A stretch of 59,486 nt of DNA, from NCBI GenBank assembly GCA_945865725.1, contig CAMBEO010000009.1, positions 1 through 59,486 of the forward strand. The letters run 5' to 3'. A program made the translations under genes and the position numbers. The notes beneath the pieces were generated by a model, which made no database searches, had not been told where the DNA came from, and saw only the letters and a list, made by a program, of their open reading frames with translations. Below are positions 14,209 to 54,921 of this stretch, piece after piece. Position 1 is the stretch's first letter; each line of letters starts with the position of its first letter. The DNA is from Thermoflexus hugenholtzii JAD2 (lineage in GTDB: Bacteria > Chloroflexota > UBA11872 > UBA12225).

Positions 14209-15840
14209 CTAGCGCCCTGCTGTCGGCCGGGTGCCTGCCGTCCCGGGCGAGAGCGCGAGGGTGGTCGCGCCGGGACCGATCACGATCGTGTCGCTGACCA
14301 CCATCGAATCGAGGTCGATGACGCTGACCGTGCCTGATGCGGAGTTCGCCACGTAGGCTCGTCGGCTGCCGTCGACGATGATCGCCTGTGGCTGTTGCCC
14401 GACCGGGACGACGTCGCGAACGTCACCCGAGCTGAGGTCGATCGCCTGGAGCATGCCGAGTTGCCCGTTCGCGACGAGGAACCGGTTGGCGCCCGGGACG
14501 ACCGCGAGGCTGGTCACCGGAGACCCGGCGTCATACGTGCGGTGCGCGGTGCCGGTCCCTCGATCGACCGCGTAGACAACCGACGTCGCCTGGTTCGAGA
14601 CGAGGATCGTGGCGCCGCCATCGGCGAACTGGAAGTCGCCGGGCCAGACCGGCACGTGCACTGGCTTGCCGATCGCGCCTGATGAAAGGTCGACAAAGCT
14701 GACCTCGCTGGTGGCGCGGTGAGCGACGCCAAGGACCGTGCCATCGGTCGTGAAGCGGAGGGTGCCGGTGCGGCGATTGAAGTCGAGGCGCCGAAGGACC
14801 TTCAGGCCGTCCGCATCGACCTCGATGACGTTCGAATAGTCCTGGCCCTCGGCGCCGGCCGTGGCGACCCAGAGGTTGCCGTCGACGGGATTGGTCGCGA
14901 GGGCGGCCACCGTGCCTGCACCGAGGGCGAGGCGCCCTTCCTCGCCGAGGTCGGAGGCTCGCAGGCGCACGACGTCGCCGGAACCGCCCCAACTGGCGAA
15001 GAGGCGGCGCCCCGACGCGGCGGCGGCCACGTGGGTAAAGCGCCCGCCGCCGAGGTCGATGGTCGCGCCAACGGTGGTCGCCGACGCGACGTCGATCGCG
15101 CTCACCCTTGGTGCGAGGTGGCCGACGAAGAGGCGCCGGGGCACCGATGGGCCCAGCAACTGGGGTGGCCGGAGGGGAGCGACGCTTTCCGTCCCCGGGC
15201 GGATGGGCCCAGCAACTGGGGCAGTCGCGGCCGCAGGCGCCGGTGGGGCCCCGGTGACCGGCGATGGGCCCAGCAACTGGGGCGTGGCGATCCGCGTCGC
15301 GGCCGGGATGGCCTGGCCCGGGGAGGTGGTCGGCGTTGGCAAGTCGTCCCCCACCCTCAATCCCTCCCCCGCTGCGGCGGGAGAGGGAAGCTCCACCGGG
15401 CCGCTGGCGAGGACGAGGTTGACTTCCACGTGAGCCTGGCCCCCGGACGTCCGGGCGATGGCCAGGCCGTTCGCGCGGGCCTGGCCAACGCCCGGCTTGC
15501 GCGCGCGGACCGTCGCGCCTTCCGTCGGGGGAGCCGCGAAGCGTGCCTCGCCCCCGGCATCGGTGACGACGCCTTGCGCGAGGGCACGACCGAAGCGATC
15601 CTGGGCGTCGATGGGCGCACCGGCAACCGGGCGCCCGGACATGTCGCGCACGCGCACGCGCACCTCGACGGGGGCGGGCGTCGGGGTCGCTGGTGCTTCC
15701 CCGACGATTTCCGGGTCGCCGATGTCGATGCCAGTGAGTGCCGCGACGTGCGCGGCGACGCCCCCGCTGGAGAGGCGGACGGCACCGACGACGCCAAGGA
15801 GGAGAACCAGGGCGATGGCGCCCGCAACGAGGCGGGTCAC
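14209..15840 (-). CDS. Membrane-anchored YVTN-type beta-propeller protein
   Basis: 543 aa, last gene of the MoxR operon. GTG 15840 overlaps the stop of the VWA gene (GTGA). One N-terminal membrane anchor (LVAGAIALVLLLGVVGAV) is followed by an Ig/carboxypeptidase-regulatory-like domain (VEVRVRVRDMSGRPVAGAPI). A Pro/Thr-rich linker comes next, then about 330 residues of propeller blades, for example YVANSASGTVSVIDLDS and FLVANGQLGMLQAIDLS. The linker is built partly from DNA repeats: one R1 copy (peptide LPSPAAAGEGLRVG) and three copies of repeat R3. It is probably exposed outside the cytoplasmic membrane. Role unknown; a scaffold or sensor for the VWA partners is possible. Confidence 0.8.
   Translation of the reverse strand: MTRLVAGAIALVLLLGVVGAVRLSSGGVAAHVAALTGIDIGDPEIVGEAPATPTPAPVEVRVRVRDMSGRPVAGAPIDAQDRFGRALAQGVVTDAGGEARFAAPPTEGATVRARKPGVGQARANGLAIARTSGGQAHVEVNLVLASGPVELPSPAAAGEGLRVGDDLPTPTTSPGQAIPAATRIATPQLLGPSPVTGAPPAPAAATAPVAGPIRPGTESVAPLRPPQLLGPSVPRRLFVGHLAPRVSAIDVASATTVGATIDLGGGRFTHVAAAASGRRLFASWGGSGDVVRLRASDLGEEGRLALGAGTVAALATNPVDGNLWVATAGAEGQDYSNVIEVDADGLKVLRRLDFNRRTGTLRFTTDGTVLGVAHRATSEVSFVDLSSGAIGKPVHVPVWPGDFQFADGGATILVSNQATSVVYAVDRGTGTAHRTYDAGSPVTSLAVVPGANRFLVANGQLGMLQAIDLSSGDVRDVVPVGQQPQAIIVDGSRRAYVANSASGTVSVIDLDSMVVSDTIVIGPGATTLALSPGTAGTRPTAGR
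15146..15165. repeat. Repeat R3, copy 1
   Basis: GATGGGCCCAGCAACTGGGG inside the beta-propeller gene, encoding PQLLGPS on the minus strand. Confidence 0.85.
15202..15221. repeat. Repeat R3, copy 2
   Basis: Identical 20-mer, 56 bp from copy 1 but in another reading frame: the minus strand here gives APVAGPI rather than PQLLGPS. Confidence 0.85.
15263..15282. repeat. Repeat R3, copy 3
   Basis: Identical 20-mer; the minus strand encodes PQLLGPS again, in the linker before the propeller. Confidence 0.85.
15350..15390. repeat. Palindromic repeat R1 inside a coding region
   Basis: CCACCCTCAATCCCTCCCCCGC followed by TGCGGCGGGAGAGGGAAG. Within the beta-propeller gene it encodes LPSPAAAGEGLRVG in frame, without disrupting the gene. 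Confidence 0.9.
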
Positions 15841-18728
15841 TGGCCCATCCCCGGCCCGACGACGAACCACTCCCATGCCCGCGACCCCCACCGGCGGGGC
15901 ACGCGCCAGAGGCGCGCCATGGCTTGCCAGGCATCGTGCGCGTCGGCCCAGGTGGGACGAAGGCGTCGCACGGCCACGTCGATGACGAAGGCGGCGACGG
16001 CGACTTGCAGGAGTTCCGGCCAGATGTCGCGCACGGCCAGGCGGTTGATCGTGTCGCGGCGCCATGCGTCCGTTGGGGCGATGATCGCGGGCGCGCCGCT
16101 CTCGGTGGCAAGGCGTTCGAGGAGGGTGCGGTTGGCGAGGACGGGCGCGACCTCGGCCGGGTAGGACCGCGCGTACCCGGCGACCTGCGAGGCGACGACC
16201 TGGCCCGCGGCGATGGGCCCAGCAACTGGGTCGGACTGGGTGACGCGCACGAAGTACGCGCCCGCCTGGGAGGCGGCGAAATCCGCCTCGTACCGGCCCG
16301 GCGCGACCTGCGCGAGGACGATCCGTCGTGAGGCACCGTCCGGTCCGGCCACGTCGGCGACGGTACCAGCCAAGTCCCGGAAGGCCCCGCCGGGCGTCCA
16401 GGCATCGACGACCACGCGGGCCCGCGATGACCCGCAGGCGGCGCCGGCGCAAGTGGTCACCGCATCGACGACGCGCACGGAGATCCCGGGTTCCCGGCTT
16501 GCGGGCATCACCCACTGGACCGACTGCGTCCAGAGGGTGCGGAAGGCGTCGCCATCCGAGACCCAGTCGCGAGACCATGGGCCTTCCGCGTCGGCAGTCC
16601 AGGCGACGGCACGACCGAGGCCATACTGCCACTGCGCGAGGATGGCCTCCTCCTGGTCGCTGGTGAGGACGATTTCGGCACCGGCGCGCGGGCTTGTTCT
16701 CAGGTACCCGTGCAGGGGGGGCATGGCGCTGGGCACGAGTCCCCGCACGGCGGCGACGGCCGACAGGAGCCGCGGGGTGAAGTCGCGCTCCTGCTTGTGG
16801 GTCCGGCCGGCGAGGCGCGCCTCCTGCGTCATGATCTGGGGTACGCCCGAGGCGGAGTCGGTGAAGTAGTAGCGTCCGCTACCGCGACGCGCGAGGTCCT
16901 GCAGCAACGCTCGGCCTGACTCGCTCGAGACGGCGACCGCCGAAAGGGTGACCCCGGCACGGCGGTAGGCGTTCATGAGGGTCGGGAACGGGGCGGGGGT
17001 GCCCTCGCCGTCGGTCAACAGGATGACGTGCTTGACGCGCGCGGACGCCGCCTGGATGCCACGCAGGGCGAGGTCAAGCGCGACGTAGATGTCGGTGCCC
17101 CCGTCCGGCTGTATCGTCGCGATCCGGTCCGAGATGGCCTTCACGTCAGCTTGGCCTCGCAAGGTGCGGATCTCGGAGTTCCACCGGGCGTTGTAGTCGA
17201 AGGCCACCACCCCGACCTGGTCGCCCTCCTTGAGGGTCTCGACCGCGAGGATCGCCCCCTCCTTGGCAAGGTCCATCCGGCTGGCCCGGCGGTCGCGCGT
17301 GTCGATGCCGGACATGCTCCCTGACCGGTCAACGACGAGGACGACGGCGAGGGTGGCCGCCTGGTCCTTGTCGGGCAACTGGACGGTGACGGGCAGGGCG
17401 TCCTCGAGGGGGGTATCGGAGTAGTCGCCTTGCCCGAAGGCATGCTCGCCCCCGGCGACGACCAGGCCGCGCCCGCGGTCGGCGACCACGTCCCGCAAGG
17501 CCGTCATCCCCGCGACGGAGAGTGCCGTCGCAGGCACGTCGGACAGGACGATCGCGTCGTATCGCGCCAGGCCGTCGACCGTGGTCGGCATGGTCGCCGG
17601 CGAGGCGACGTCGACCACCATCCGCGTGCCGACCAGGGCGGCGGCGATGCGGCTCGCATTCCCGGCGTCGCCCTCGACAACGAGGACGCGACCGGGATCG
17701 ACGACCAGGGCATGGGAGAAGGCGGCGTTGTTTGCGGCGACGGGGTCGCCATCGGCAGTGACCTCGGCGCGGAAGCCCCAGGCGCCGCGCCCGAGATGGC
17801 CGACCAGGACGGGAACCTCCGTCGGACCCTGGTCGACGTCGAAGGCGCGCTCGAAGACGAGGGTGCCGGGATCGATCGCGTCCCCCGGGCCGTCCGGCGC
17901 CCGGCGCGCCCAGACCCTTACGGCGACGCGACCCGGTCCTGGCGACTGCACGACGACGCGACCGCTGGCACGCTCGCCATCATGGAGGACGGGATCCACC
18001 TCGAACCCGGCGATGGCGACGTCATCGAGGCGTCCGGGGACGACGCGGGCGGCGATCTCGACACCGCGCAAGGCGGGGGCGCGGGCCGCGGCGAGGGCGC
18101 CCCCAGTCGTCTCGTTCCCGTCGGTCAGGAGGACAAGGCGGCGCAAGTAGCCGGCACCGGCGGGGGGCAACATGGCGGCGCCCGTCGCGATCGCCTCGGC
18201 GAGGTCACTTGATTCGCGGTCGCCTGCGTCAAGCGGGGGAGATGCCTCAAGTGCAGGGGCACCGGGGTCCCGGCGCCCGGCCGCGACGTCGATGCGACTG
18301 GTCCGTCCGAAACTCGCGACCGCCCCGAGGTCGTCCGGGCCCCGTGCCGCCAGGGCGGCGCTCGCGAACCCGGCGGCGGCGGCCTGCACGTCGGCGGGCA
18401 CGCTGGCCGACCGGTCGACGAGGATGACCGTCGCGACCCCGATGGCCGGCGCGAGGATCGTGAAGCCGGCAAGGGCGAGGACGAGGCAACCGGTGACGAG
18501 GGTGCGCAAGGTGGCATGGACCGCCCACGACCGGGAACGCCCGGCACGTCCCGCTCCGGTCCCCGGACGCCCGCGTGTCCCTGGGATGACGGCACGGCCG
18601 AACCCGGCGGCGACCCACCAGACCCAAGGCACGATGGCAAGGGCAAGCACCCACCACGGGCGCGCGAACGTGAACGGCAGGGGGCCGGTGAGGTCGGCAA
18701 GGGCTGCTTGGATGCCCGAGGGGTTCAT
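15837..18728 (-). CDS. Membrane protein with two VWA-type domains (glutamine-amidotransferase-like architecture)
   Basis: 963 aa. The start ATG 18728 overlaps the previous stop (ATGA). Membrane segments near residues 20-45 and 70-95 precede a first VWA-like fold with MIDAS DRSAS near residue 103. A flavodoxin/class-I-amidotransferase-like domain follows (RVLVVEGDAGNASRIAAAL, YDAIVLSDVPA, GRGLVVAGGEHAFGQG). A second VWA domain has the complete MIDAS DRSGSM near residue 466 and TDGEGTPAP. Another membrane segment lies near the C-terminus (LLQVAVAAFVIDVAV). This resembles large Bat-operon proteins. One copy of repeat R3 (16212-16230) lies within the coding sequence. It probably binds a divalent metal and protein partners outside the membrane; the biochemical role is unknown. 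Confidence 0.85.
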   Translation of the reverse strand: MNPSGIQAALADLTGPLPFTFARPWWVLALAIVPWVWWVAAGFGRAVIPGTRGRPGTGAGRAGRSRSWAVHATLRTLVTGCLVLALAGFTILAPAIGVATVILVDRSASVPADVQAAAAGFASAALAARGPDDLGAVASFGRTSRIDVAAGRRDPGAPALEASPPLDAGDRESSDLAEAIATGAAMLPPAGAGYLRRLVLLTDGNETTGGALAAARAPALRGVEIAARVVPGRLDDVAIAGFEVDPVLHDGERASGRVVVQSPGPGRVAVRVWARRAPDGPGDAIDPGTLVFERAFDVDQGPTEVPVLVGHLGRGAWGFRAEVTADGDPVAANNAAFSHALVVDPGRVLVVEGDAGNASRIAAALVGTRMVVDVASPATMPTTVDGLARYDAIVLSDVPATALSVAGMTALRDVVADRGRGLVVAGGEHAFGQGDYSDTPLEDALPVTVQLPDKDQAATLAVVLVVDRSGSMSGIDTRDRRASRMDLAKEGAILAVETLKEGDQVGVVAFDYNARWNSEIRTLRGQADVKAISDRIATIQPDGGTDIYVALDLALRGIQAASARVKHVILLTDGEGTPAPFPTLMNAYRRAGVTLSAVAVSSESGRALLQDLARRGSGRYYFTDSASGVPQIMTQEARLAGRTHKQERDFTPRLLSAVAAVRGLVPSAMPPLHGYLRTSPRAGAEIVLTSDQEEAILAQWQYGLGRAVAWTADAEGPWSRDWVSDGDAFRTLWTQSVQWVMPASREPGISVRVVDAVTTCAGAACGSSRARVVVDAWTPGGAFRDLAGTVADVAGPDGASRRIVLAQVAPGRYEADFAASQAGAYFVRVTQSDPVAGPIAAGQVVASQVAGYARSYPAEVAPVLANRTLLERLATESGAPAIIAPTDAWRRDTINRLAVRDIWPELLQVAVAAFVIDVAVRRLRPTWADAHDAWQAMARLWRVPRRWGSRAWEWFVVGPGMGQ
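16212..16230. repeat. Repeat R3, copy 4
   Basis: GATGGGCCCAGCAACTGGG inside the double-VWA gene, read in the same frame as copy 2 (protein DPVAGPIAAG). Confidence 0.8.
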
Positions 18729-20947
18729 TGGTCCGCCTCGGGAGCCGTCCGGCCTGCGGCCCATGCGGCTGCGGCGTCGCCCGGATGGACGGGGGTGGTG
18801 CTTCCCTCTCCCGCCGCAGCGGGGGAGGGATCGGATACGCGGATAACGAGGGAGGGGGCCCTCTCCCGCGAGGCGATCCCAATCGAGGCGGGGCGCGGTC
18901 GGCGCACGCCGCCGGCGTGGAACCACCACCACTCGGCGGCGACGGCGGCGAGGGCCGCTGCGCCGGCCCAAGGCCACCACTCGTCACGCTCGCGCGCCTC
19001 GCCCGGTCCAAGCAACAGGGGTCCTGGCTCTGCGCCCGGACCGACCGAGGCCAGCGCGAGGACGGGGCCGCGTGGACGCAAGTCGGCCAACGCGTCCTCC
19101 CGGCCAGCGGGGACGGTGCGAGCGATGGTCACGTGGCGCGCGATCATCACGTCTTGCTCGTACTCGCGCACGACATACGCGCCCGGTGCGCCGGTGTCGA
19201 GGAAGCGCACCGAGGGGCGCGCGGTCGATCCCGGCGTGTCGATGCGACGGACCTCGCCGGTCGGCATCTCGATCGTGAGGGAGGTGGTGCGCGGAAGGGG
19301 CGCGATCGGCAACGAGTCGCCCGGGACGATCGAGGCGTCGCTCCCGGCCGCGCCCTCGGCGCCCCCGGTCAACCAGGTGATCGCGTTGGACACCAGGACG
19401 GGGAAGCCGACGCGTCCGAGGAGGTTTGACGTCCGCAGGTCGAAGGCGACGACGATGGCGCGATAGGCACCGGGGTAGCCCATGAGGACGAGCGGGGCCC
19501 CGCGCGCCGAGACGACCTCTTCCGCCCAGGCGGGGAGGACGACCTGGCGTGCCTCGAGGACGGAAACGCCCGCGAAGTCGACGCCCCCAAGGAGGGGACC
19601 GGGGCGAACCCGGGCGACCTGGGCGGAGTTCCACTCGCGCCCGCCGTCGGTGCGGCGCCCAAGCGTCCCGTTGACGACGACGGGGCCGTCGGTGCGGGGC
19701 GGGTCGATCAGCAACCAGTGCGCCATTGGCGCCTGCGGCGGGAACCAGGCCTCGAAGACGACGACATCGTAGCGAGCCGTGGGGTCGTAGCGCGTCGGGT
19801 CGATGCGTTCGAGGGTGAGTCCCGGCACGGCCCGCAAGGCACGGTCAAGCTGTTCGGTGCGCCCGCCGACGAGGGCGACGCGCCGTGCGACCGGGCGGGG
19901 GACCGCGGCGGTGGCGAGGTTGTCGACCGCGAGGAGGTCCGGCGCGTCGAACCATGCCTCGACCCAGGAAGCGTCGGCCGGGAGGTTCGGGATCGCGATG
20001 GCCTCGCTCGCCCCGGCGCCGACCTCGAGGGGACGCGCGCCGAACGGCTTCCCGTCGACGCGCAGGCGAAGCGAACCGGTCGCAGGGGAAGGCCCGTGGT
20101 TGGTGACGCGAACGAATGCCTGCACTGGCGTGGTCGCGGGGTCGCACGGGTCGTCGCCGCAGGTGTCGGGCCGACGGGCGACGAGGGCGACGATCGCGGC
20201 GTTGCTCGGGGCGACGCCATCAACTGACGAGGCCTTGCCGACCCGTGCAACCTGGATCGGCACGGACGGGCGACGCACTGGACCCTCGATGTCGGCGACG
20301 GCACCGGTCACGAGGAGGACCTCGCCATGGAGGGCGTCGCGGATCTCCGCGCCCGCGAGCTCGAGGGCTTGCGCGAGGTTGGCCTCGGCCGGCCGGGCGA
20401 CCAGGCGCCCGATGGCGGCGACGATCGTGGCGGCGTCGGCGGGCATCTCGCCGGACGACTCGACGCGCGCGGCGCTCGCCGCCGAGATGATGACGGCCCG
20501 GTCGCCGGGGCGGAGGCGGGAGACGACGAGGGACGCCCGGGCCTTTGCCTCGTCGAGGCGGGTGGCGATGCCCCGGCGCCCGACGGCATCGGCGAATGGC
20601 CCGTCGGCCACGACCCGCGCGTCGCCATCGGCGGCCAGCATCGGTTCCGAGGTGTCGATGATGATCGCGACGATGCGCGGTACGGGGATCATGCGCTCCA
20701 GTGCGGGTCGGCCGAGGGCGAGGGCGACGAGGAGGGCCGCCGCGACTTGCATCAGGAGGATCGCGTGGCGGCGAAGCCAGGCCAGCGGGCTGCGCGTCGA
20801 GTCGGGTTCGAGGGCGCGTCGCCAGAGGAGGATGCTGGACACCTCGACGCGGCGGCTCCGGGGCCGGAGGAGGTAGAGGCCGAGGATGGCAGCGGCCGCA
20901 CCGGCCCACGCGAGGCCCCACGGCGTCAACAGGCTCGCCCCGCTCAT
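18725..20947 (-). CDS. BatA-like membrane protein with degenerate VWA domain
   Basis: 740 aa. It opens with the BatA N-terminal signature: LLTPWGLAWAGAAAAILGLYLLRPRSRRVEVSSILLWRRALEP, then a second membrane segment (AILLMQVAAALLVALALGRPAL). A VWA-like domain follows in which the MIDAS reads DTSEPM, so the third residue of DxSxS is Pro. A central immunoglobulin-like or CARDB-like stretch and a last membrane segment near residue 695 (WWPWAGAAALAAVAAEWWWFHAGG) complete it. The C-terminal 35 residues (IRVSDPSPAAAGEGSTTP and onward) are largely encoded by an R1 repeat. CAGGG lies about 9 nt before the ATG. A repeat cluster separates it from DUF58. Confidence 0.83.
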   Translation of the reverse strand: MSGASLLTPWGLAWAGAAAAILGLYLLRPRSRRVEVSSILLWRRALEPDSTRSPLAWLRRHAILLMQVAAALLVALALGRPALERMIPVPRIVAIIIDTSEPMLAADGDARVVADGPFADAVGRRGIATRLDEAKARASLVVSRLRPGDRAVIISAASAARVESSGEMPADAATIVAAIGRLVARPAEANLAQALELAGAEIRDALHGEVLLVTGAVADIEGPVRRPSVPIQVARVGKASSVDGVAPSNAAIVALVARRPDTCGDDPCDPATTPVQAFVRVTNHGPSPATGSLRLRVDGKPFGARPLEVGAGASEAIAIPNLPADASWVEAWFDAPDLLAVDNLATAAVPRPVARRVALVGGRTEQLDRALRAVPGLTLERIDPTRYDPTARYDVVVFEAWFPPQAPMAHWLLIDPPRTDGPVVVNGTLGRRTDGGREWNSAQVARVRPGPLLGGVDFAGVSVLEARQVVLPAWAEEVVSARGAPLVLMGYPGAYRAIVVAFDLRTSNLLGRVGFPVLVSNAITWLTGGAEGAAGSDASIVPGDSLPIAPLPRTTSLTIEMPTGEVRRIDTPGSTARPSVRFLDTGAPGAYVVREYEQDVMIARHVTIARTVPAGREDALADLRPRGPVLALASVGPGAEPGPLLLGPGEARERDEWWPWAGAAALAAVAAEWWWFHAGGVRRPRPASIGIASRERAPSLVIRVSDPSPAAAGEGSTTPVHPGDAAAAWAAGRTAPEADQ
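18790..18862. repeat. Palindromic repeat R1 with R1b half, inside a coding region
   Basis: Inverted copy relative to 15350-15390. It carries both the near-palindrome and the associated CGTTATCCGCGTA segment. Read by the BatA-like gene it again gives PSPAAAGEG, now from the opposite strand of the element. Confidence 0.9.
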
Positions 20948-20992: not shown

Positions 20993-21443
20993 CGGGCATC
21001 CCTGCTCGCCGGGGTGGTGGTGGCGTGGAGGGCGGCCGGGGGGGGCGGCGGGATCGCCCGCCGGTGAACTCGATCACGCGACTGGAGACGGGTTGGCCCC
21101 CACCAGGGCACGGCGGGCAGGGATGCCCGCGGACCAAGGGGACGGCCACCGCGTCCGCGCGACTGGAGACCGGTTGGAACCCACCAGGGCACGGCGGTCG
21201 GTGCGACACCAAGGCGGCGGAGCGGGCGAGACGCCCGCGGTCCCGGCGCACGGCGGTCGGTGCGACACCAAGGCGGCGGAGCGGGCAGGGATGCCCGCGG
21301 ACCAAGAGGACGGCCACCGCGTCCGCGCGACTGGAGACGGGATGGACGCCCACCGGGGCACGGCGTGGTGGTTGGGGGTGCCGGTTGGGCGGGGAGGGGC
21401 TTGGTCGGAGGGACGCGGAGGGGCTTGGTCGGAGGGACGCGGA
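20993..21443. repeat. Composite repeat cluster splitting the MoxR operon
   Basis: This fills the 543-base gap between DUF58 and the BatA-like gene; no gene is seen in it. Unit A (CGCGACTGGAGACGGGTTGG then CCCACCAGGGCACGGCG) starts near 21077, 21158 and 21326. Unit B (GCGGGCAGGGATGCCCGC, GGACCAAG, GGACGGCCACCGCGTCC) is at about 21114 and 21281; GCGGGCA-GGGA-TGCCCGC is a 7-bp hairpin. Unit C (GCACGGCGGTCGGTGCGACA then CCAAGGCGGCGGAGCGGGC) is at 21189 and 21248. A 24-bp direct repeat starting GGGGCTTGGTCGGAGGG lies at 21396-21419 and 21420-21443. Related fragments occur near 28979 and 44418. Confidence 0.85.
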
Positions 21444-33709: not shown

Positions 33710-33730
33710 CCCGGTTGCCGGGCCCATCGC
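33710..33730. repeat. Repeat R3-like sequence (diverged)
   Basis: GGTTGCCGGGCCCATCGCAC resembles the inverted R3 sequence (CAGTTGCTGGGCCCATC) found in the VWA and propeller genes. Confidence 0.5.
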
Positions 33731-33805: not shown

Positions 33806-34147
33806 CACCCCCAACGCTGCGGCGGGAGAGGGAAGCACCACCCCCACCCTCAGTCCCTCCCCCGCTGCGGCGGGAGAGGGAAGCACCACCCCCACCCTCA
33901 ATCCCTCCCCCGCTGCGGCGGGAGAGGGAAGCACCACCCCCACCCTCAGTCCCTCCCCCGCTGCGGCGGGAGAGGGAAGCACCGCCCCTGCCCCTAGTGC
34001 CGGCCTCACGCGCCCCCACCATCGTTATCCGCGTACGCGGTCCCTCACCCGCTGCGGCGGGAGAGGGAAGCACCACCCCTGCCCCCGGGTAGCGCCCCCT
34101 TCCACTTGCCGCAACAAGCACCCCCAGCGCTGCGGCGGGAGAGGGGC
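33806..34147. repeat. Tandem array of palindromic repeat R1 (six copies)
   Basis: Most of the 652-base gap between the amidohydrolase and TauE genes; no gene is seen here. The centres GCTGCGGCGG of the first four copies are at 33817, 33865, 33913 and 33961, exactly 48 bp apart. A fifth copy, preceded by the R1b segment CATCGTTATCCGCGTACGCG, lies near 34050. A sixth, with the CAACAAGCACCCCCA flank, is near 34130. The array stays open in several frames, which creates long spurious ORFs. A -10-like TACACT follows at 34158-34163. Confidence 0.95.
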
Positions 34148-44351: not shown

Positions 44352-44441
44352 GGACGGCCCCCACCCTCAGTCCCTCCCCCGCTGCGGCGGGAGAGGGAAG
44401 CACCGCCCCCTCCCCCGTTGGTCCGCGGGCCATGGCTCGCA
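44352..44441. repeat. Palindromic repeat R1 plus composite-unit B fragment
   Basis: GACGGCCCCCACCCTCAGTC leads into the R1 core, then CCCCCTCCCCCGTTGGTCCG with GCGGGCCATGGCTCGC, which resembles unit B of the 21-kb cluster. It occupies the 257-base gap before the next gene. Confidence 0.85.
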
Positions 44442-51305: not shown

Positions 51306-51401
51306 CCCCCACCATCGTTATCCGCGTACGCGATCCCTCCCCCGAGACGGCCCCCTCCCTCAGTCCCTCCCCCGCTGCGGCGGGAGAGGGAAGCACCACC
51401 G
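51306..51401. repeat. Palindromic repeat R1 with R1b half
   Basis: CCCCCACCATCGTTATCCGC-GTACGCGATCCCTCCCCC, then a full R1 core (GTCCCTCCCCCGC, TGCGGCGGGAGAGGGAAGC), between the converging PucR-type and ureD genes. CGCGTACGCG is a perfect 10-bp palindrome. Confidence 0.9.
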
Positions 51402-54545: not shown

Positions 54546-54921
54546 GACATCGTTATCCGCGTACGCGATCCCTCCCCCGCTGCGGCGGGAGAGGGAAGCA
54601 GGACGGCCCCCACCCTCAGTCCCTCCCCCGCTGCGGCGGGAGAGGGAAGCAGGACGGCCCCCACCCTCAATCCCTCCCCCGCTGCGGCGGGAGAGGGAAG
54701 CACCGCCCCAGCCCCGATACGACCCCCACCCTCAGTCCCTCCCCCGCTGCGGCGGGAGAGGGAAGCACCACCCCAGCCCCGATACGACCCCCACCATCGT
54801 TATCCGCGTACGCGATCCCTCCCCCGCTGCGGCGGGAGAGGGAAGCAGGACGGCCCCCGACATCGTCACCCCACCATCGTTATCCGCGTACGCGATTCCT
54901 CCCCCGCGCGGGAGAGGGAGG
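54546..54921. repeat. Tandem array of palindromic repeat R1 inside the urease operon
   Basis: Five full cores (centres GCTGCGG at about 54579, 54630, 54681, 54746 and 54826) and a sixth decayed copy near 54900. The first three are 51 bp apart. Copies 1, 5 and 6 carry the R1b segment ATCGTTATCCGCGTACGCG. The array sits between ureE and the unknown urease-operon gene, and supplies that gene's reading frame with its C-terminal codons. Confidence 0.95.

Follow-up and report, generated by a model that had tools for sequence, protein, structure and literature searches.

An in-frame REP-like palindromic repeat in the linker of a beta-propeller protein and in other proteins of a Chloroflexota genome

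REPs are palindromes of 20–40 bp that occur at high copy number (PMC3733652), and high-copy palindromes are also described for REP-RAYT systems in the portions of PMC2817692 and PMC8266576 drawn on here. The GTAG and CGTC families of REPs are found inside ORFs as well, singly or in groups. According to the sections of Di Nocera et al. 2013 (PMC3733652) used for this comparison, more than half of the inserts encode 20–30 amino acids, clusters encode up to 82 amino acids, and many of the proteins with intragenic REPs act in DNA synthesis and repair. The same sections report GTAG repeats from Chloroflexi too, describe head-tail dimers as absent, under-represented, or negligible in the GTAG and CGTC families, which mainly form head-head or tail-tail arrangements, and name the Rickettsia palindromic elements (RPE). 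The enterobacterial MITE-like units RU-1, RU-2, and RU-3 are intragenic, measure 103–168 bp, and provide open frames within annotated genes, as stated in the excerpted part of Delihas 2007 (PMC2759123). In-frame palindromes in proteins are already known, as far as these excerpts go (PMC3733652, PMC2759123).

The locus compared here lies in a stretch of 59,486 nucleotides from a 2.3-Mb MAG (G000); this whole stretch is referred to as the window. At 14209..15840 on the minus strand, the window contains a gene of 543 codons whose GTG start overlaps the stop of an upstream VWA/GATase1-like gene (15837..18728, minus strand). The protein product, as predicted from the MAG sequence, would consist of an N-terminal hydrophobic segment, a CarboxypepD_reg domain, a disordered linker, and a YVTN-type beta-propeller. 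The domain labels proposed in a first-pass annotation of this DNA agree with the present analyses: CarboxypepD_reg (residues 60–130) scored above the Pfam cut-off, and the propeller, which begins at about residue 236, was recognized through the AlphaFold model (7 sequences, mean pLDDT 72), for which the YVTN propeller 1l0q is the top match in the PDB (E 9.1e-18). The Pfam Lactonase match to the propeller region was below the cut-off. The interdomain linker (residues 146–234; 15139..15405, minus strand) is P/A/T/G-rich and predicted to be disordered. In the model, pLDDT is below 50 over residues 148–231 and about 80 or more over nearly all of the propeller.

The linker carries a copy of a palindromic repeat, termed R1. 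The unit comprises 16 codons (VELPSPAAAGEGLRVG; 15349..15396, minus strand, with 15352-15399 as an alternative register), and its peptide, residues 149–164, falls entirely within the part of the model predicted to be disordered. The first-pass annotation had described a complete R1 element placed in frame in the linker of an otherwise intact gene, and the description holds in each respect, its coordinates included: LPSPAAAGEGLRVG is encoded by 15349-15390 on the minus strand, the exact 28-mer TCCCTCCCCCGCTGCGGCGGGAGAGGGA is found at 15361-15388 with flanks that follow the R1 consensus both to the left (CCCCCACCCTCAAT) and to the right (AAGCTCCACC versus the consensus AAGCACCACC), and the reading frame is open throughout. 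The 28-mer is the exact palindrome core (15361..15388, given on the plus strand). On the mRNA strand it is predicted to fold (-30.6 kcal/mol, z -2.91) into a hairpin of 12 bp with a loop of 4 nt, and the other strand is less stable (-25.0 kcal/mol).

The R1 repeat is about 48 nt long, including a palindrome of 26–28 bp, and its consensus from 87 copies, about 50 nt long, is CCCCCACCCTCA[AG]TCCCTC-CCCCGCTGCGGCGGGAGAGGG-AAGCACCACCCCC. The number of matches in G000 ranges from 239 to 344 by pattern and stringency: 344 for a 21-mer with up to two mismatches, 245 and 276 for a 26-mer with up to two and up to three mismatches, respectively, and 239 for a 28-mer with up to three mismatches. Reversed-pattern controls for these counts gave no match in the same genome, among them that for the 21-mer core at up to two mismatches. 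The same-genus genome G001 contains 52 copies (26-mer, up to two mismatches), which were taken for the stem count, and 24 further copies at three mismatches were left out. One C-A mismatch in the stem is kept in 51 of the 52 copies, and the loop-closing pair is C-G in 16, T-A in 21, C-A in 9, and another combination in 6. Within the class, 9 of 41 genomes have an R1 match at up to three mismatches. Phage records gave no R1 match; the exact 26-base core was seen in three viral-contig stretches (L128-L130).

In order to describe the distribution of R1, an 851-kb sample was used, consisting of the window and 40 further stretches, in which called genes cover about 85% of the bases; both this coding fraction and the genic status of copies were taken from our own codon-bias gene-calling script. 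At up to two mismatches, the sample contained 142 copies, of which 123 were intergenic and 19, at 14 sites, were genic. Since 123 of 142 copies are intergenic despite the coding fraction, genic copies are depleted (binomial p 3e-81 by copy and 2e-57 by site, with copies or sites treated as independent), and the copy in the propeller gene is an exception. A smaller sample (452 kb, up to three mismatches) had 77 of 87 copies between genes. The 117 intergenic copies with a called gene on both sides (of 123) entered the orientation counts, which gave 1.65 copies per intergenic kb between convergent genes, 0.97 between unidirectional genes, and 0.76 between divergent genes. Between unidirectional genes, 34 copies are sense and 33 antisense to transcription, showing no orientation bias, and a terminator or RNA role for R1 is not favoured because of this balance. 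Neighbouring copies within 130 bp are nearly always arranged head-to-tail, 38 in the same orientation and 1 in the opposite one. The intergenic copies of the window, all on the plus strand, comprise a head-to-tail array of three exact cores with a 48-nt period (33854..33977), single copies at 44371..44398 and 51364..51391, and a head-to-tail array of five exact cores (54569..54843). Some arrays have a 48-nt spacing, with which a unit of 48 nt would agree, though spacings vary widely. A second hairpin-like module (GCGGGCA...TGCCCGCGGACCAA) was observed at 21113-21357 of the window and in the linker of stretch L078 (KDARGPTGEG), where it adjoins R1-like arms, which suggests mosaic elements.

The propeller gene is present in all eight family relatives, with 35–61% identity in the best stretch. 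A contig scan with the propeller protein alone confirmed no loci. An alignment-based scan gave seven, which repeat seven of the eight family genomes, as judged from coordinates or identical linkers, and were counted once. The first-pass annotation had held that a segment common to all orthologues would speak against an insertion; none of the eight relatives has an R1-like sequence at this locus, allowing up to six substitutions in 26. It had further suggested that an alignment of orthologues might reveal a precise absence of 40–50 bp, and in this respect only the absence is clear, in 8 of 8 relatives, and the precision of the empty site is not. The linker, taken from [DN]L.L to the start of the propeller, measures 101 amino acids in this protein; G001 has 77, and four relatives have 65. 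Those linkers of relatives that were read are likewise P/A/T/G-rich. Excision of 16 codons at R1 gave the best alignment to G001 (score 127 versus 103 for the unexcised sequence), but other excisions reach 126. Random excisions of 16 amino acids scored at least as high as the R1 excision in 3.3% of cases with G001, 11% with G006, 36% with G005, and 18% with G008, and three of the four relatives tested thus give no clear support for a precise R1 excision. Because the propeller linker is hypervariable, the alignments locate the exact empty site only weakly.

Within genes, R1 copies of either orientation are found, in linkers, loops, and terminal tails; the genes at 12 of the 14 genic sites have a Pfam family. 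In the single array that was inspected, the sense frames are free of stops, as are two of the three antisense frames viewed; one frame per strand reads as small, flexible residues (PSPAAAGEG). This type of frame is used at 11 of the 14 genic sites, counting MutL, in which one of two copies uses it. The preference could reflect selection or, in part, a bias of the gene caller.

The fused IspD-IspF protein (IspDF; L078:14710-16197, G000:C8, minus strand) is a cleaner case of R1 insertion than the propeller linker. Its linker is made of R1-derived units, several of them at a 39-nt period, and the protein is 496 amino acids long, versus stop-to-stop frames of 405–439 amino acids in six relatives. 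The IspDF linkers of G002, G005, G007, G008, G009, and G010 and of the partial G001 protein are short, and R1 is absent from all seven. In QueA (L085:14299-15711, minus strand), an R1 copy and related units occupy a loop; six of seven aligned relatives have a shorter one. The case is blurred by a long insert that G004 has of its own in the loop and by R1-family palindromes in the stretch around the G001 queA gene. In G000, MutL (L065:8821-10776, plus strand) carries two R1 copies in the linker that separates DNA_mis_repair from MutL_C. C-terminal tails with R1 were found in YfhO, an ABC exporter, a histidine kinase, and BatA-type proteins. The YfhO tail has a near-identical R1 peptide, VLPSPAAAGEGLREGD, and a BatA/VWA-type gene in the window (18725..20947, minus strand) has a tail containing R1-encoded DPSPAAAGEGSTTP, with the core at 18803..18830 on the minus strand. 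R1 forms the C-terminal FPLPPQRGRD directly before the stop in a glycosyltransferase (L060:2545-3672) and a DegT-type aminotransferase (L091:13331-14665), both on the minus strand, and lies near the N-terminus of a Yip1 protein. LarC has a one-mismatch copy beside a His-rich linker, and its relatives also have long variable linkers there. The QueA, YfhO-tail, and LarC regions differ in length among relatives regardless of R1.

A second repeat, R2 (CCCAGTTGCTGGGCCCATC, 19 bp), occurs exactly four times, all within 1.1 kb and in two adjacent genes. Three copies, all on the minus strand, are in the propeller linker: those at 15263..15281 and 15146..15164 are read in a PQLLGPS frame, and that at 15202..15220 is read in another codon phase, as PVAGPI. 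The fourth is the one R2 insertion in the upstream VWA gene (16212..16230, minus strand), where it accounts for a net insertion of 18 bp, or six codons (PVAGPI). The sequence here is VRVTQSD-PVAGPI-AAGQVVAS, whereas in the five nearest orthologues VRVTQ[AT]D is directly followed by [AT][SG]G; the alignment of a sixth, more distant orthologue (L071) shows a gap of five residues following DPY. The eight other genomes of the family contain no R2 at up to two mismatches. Excising the three linker copies gave no gain in alignment over random excisions, 33%, 99%, 98%, and 83% of which do as well. Insertion of R2 into the linker is therefore unsupported, unlike that of the VWA copy. A fifth R2 with two mismatches was observed at 33710-33728 of the window, in no called gene and beside an R1 array; by inspection, its two changes together keep a stem pair, A-T becoming G-C.

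We consider it highly probable that R1 in the propeller linker is a tolerated REP-like insertion kept in a disordered, hypervariable linker. The first-pass annotation had already suggested toleration, which fits the predicted disorder, the intact frame, and the in-frame R1 copies in other proteins. R1 is a high-copy REP-like palindromic repeat of the lineage, and since it is present here and absent in the eight family relatives at this locus, it would most simply have entered the propeller gene once the lineage had diverged from the nearest relative sampled. Copies presumably arise via a DNA-level process, with most genic insertions being lost and survivors persisting where the frame is kept and the site is in a disordered linker, loop, or tail. 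The propeller copy may have stayed because both its frame and its hypervariable linker, predicted to be disordered, were permissive in this way. As R1 is mostly stop-free and has a PSPAAAGEG-like reading, it would add neutral extra linker length. Retention of the frame would then most likely reflect the survival of harmless insertions rather than targeting.

The stability of the mRNA-strand hairpin (-30.6 versus -25.0 kcal/mol) and the position of R1 between two folded domains in the propeller protein, MutL, and IspDF could also indicate a domesticated spacer or mRNA hairpin, kept for a longer linker or for slowed translation between domains. We regard this as unlikely, because genic copies are of either orientation and some lie in terminal tails, intergenic copies have no transcription bias, and the sequence and length of the propeller linker differ among relatives. 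Misplacement of R1 into the gene by the joining of MAG fragments through repeats is conceivable for a repeat-rich MAG of 106 contigs, but residues 1–536 of 543 match one relative at 61% identity with no stop, the flanks on either side of R1 belong to one gene, and the loci inspected in six relatives all include the upstream VWA gene; such an artefact is very improbable. Still less credible is a drift of low-complexity protein sequence converging on R1. The P/A/T/G-rich linkers of the relatives that were read out would suit it, but the identity is at the DNA level, an exact 28-mer with consensus flanks against 0 matches in the reversed-pattern control, and at other sites R1 is read in different frames and from the opposite strand. 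Chance or protein-level convergence is accordingly ruled out for the linker copy at the DNA level.

Beyond the tolerated insertion that we prefer, a broader and rather doubtful idea is that the lineage builds and lengthens linkers from mobile palindromes. At least these two unrelated elements, R1 (about 48 nt) and R2 (18 nt), would be copied at the DNA level into linkers and loops of the propeller protein, VWA, IspDF, MutL, and QueA without a RAYT, for example by hairpin-templated strand switching, and R2 would be an 18-bp unit active only around the propeller operon. Mobilization of R1 by a RAYT found no support in G000 (85% complete), where a search for Y1_Tnp gave no match; the same search finds two in G001. 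In stretch L045 (G001:C366), a RAYT-like Y1_Tnp gene was observed with a divergent R1-like palindrome nearby (four substitutions), which is too little for a conclusion.

These observations extend the in-frame decoration of proteins by palindromes to another Chloroflexota lineage and provide, within a single genome, several cases that can be aligned, the sharpest being R2 in the VWA gene and the IspDF linker. Such cases help to ask where proteins tolerate insertions and whether repeats supply new linkers. No description of R1 in Chloroflexota was found among the open-access papers searched, mostly by titles and the openings of abstracts. R1-like palindromes are found on plasmids: 33 records match a 50-nt R1 query, 29 of them from Azospirillum, and in 27 of the 33 one place covers at least 80% of the query. 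In the one record opened, NC_016624, the match has 90.5% identity over 42 nt and is located between genes. Azospirillum belongs to another phylum.

Compared with the described systems, R1 has the size and copy number of REPs in general, being a high-copy palindrome (26–28 bp, 239–344 matches) that is mainly intergenic. An imperfect stem is typical of REPs. Like the palindromes of REP-RAYT systems, R1 is present at high copy number; its stem keeps one C-A mismatch in 51 of 52 G001 copies. It resembles RPE in being a palindrome inside protein genes that is apparently tolerated, and differs from them in its sequence, its phylum, and its mostly intergenic location. RPE sizes also differ from that of R1. 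The likeness to the RU units, as they appear in the excerpted source, is that of a small repeat with open frames in genes, but R1 is about 48 nt long compared with 103–168 bp. R1 also resembles, within the sections of the source consulted, the GTAG/CGTC REPs, which are likewise short, high-copy, mostly intergenic, and in some cases intragenic, and MutL is comparable to their repair proteins. Unlike these families, R1 lacks a GTAG or CGTC next to its stem, the surroundings being CTCA[AG]T-stem-AAGCACCACC, and its neighbouring copies are in the same orientation in 38 cases and opposite in 1. The missing tag and the head-to-tail arrays set R1 apart from the GTAG/CGTC families as described in those sections. 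Because it lacks the tag, forms head-to-tail arrays, and is accompanied by no RAYT detected in G000, R1 is a variant of the known intragenic-REP type.
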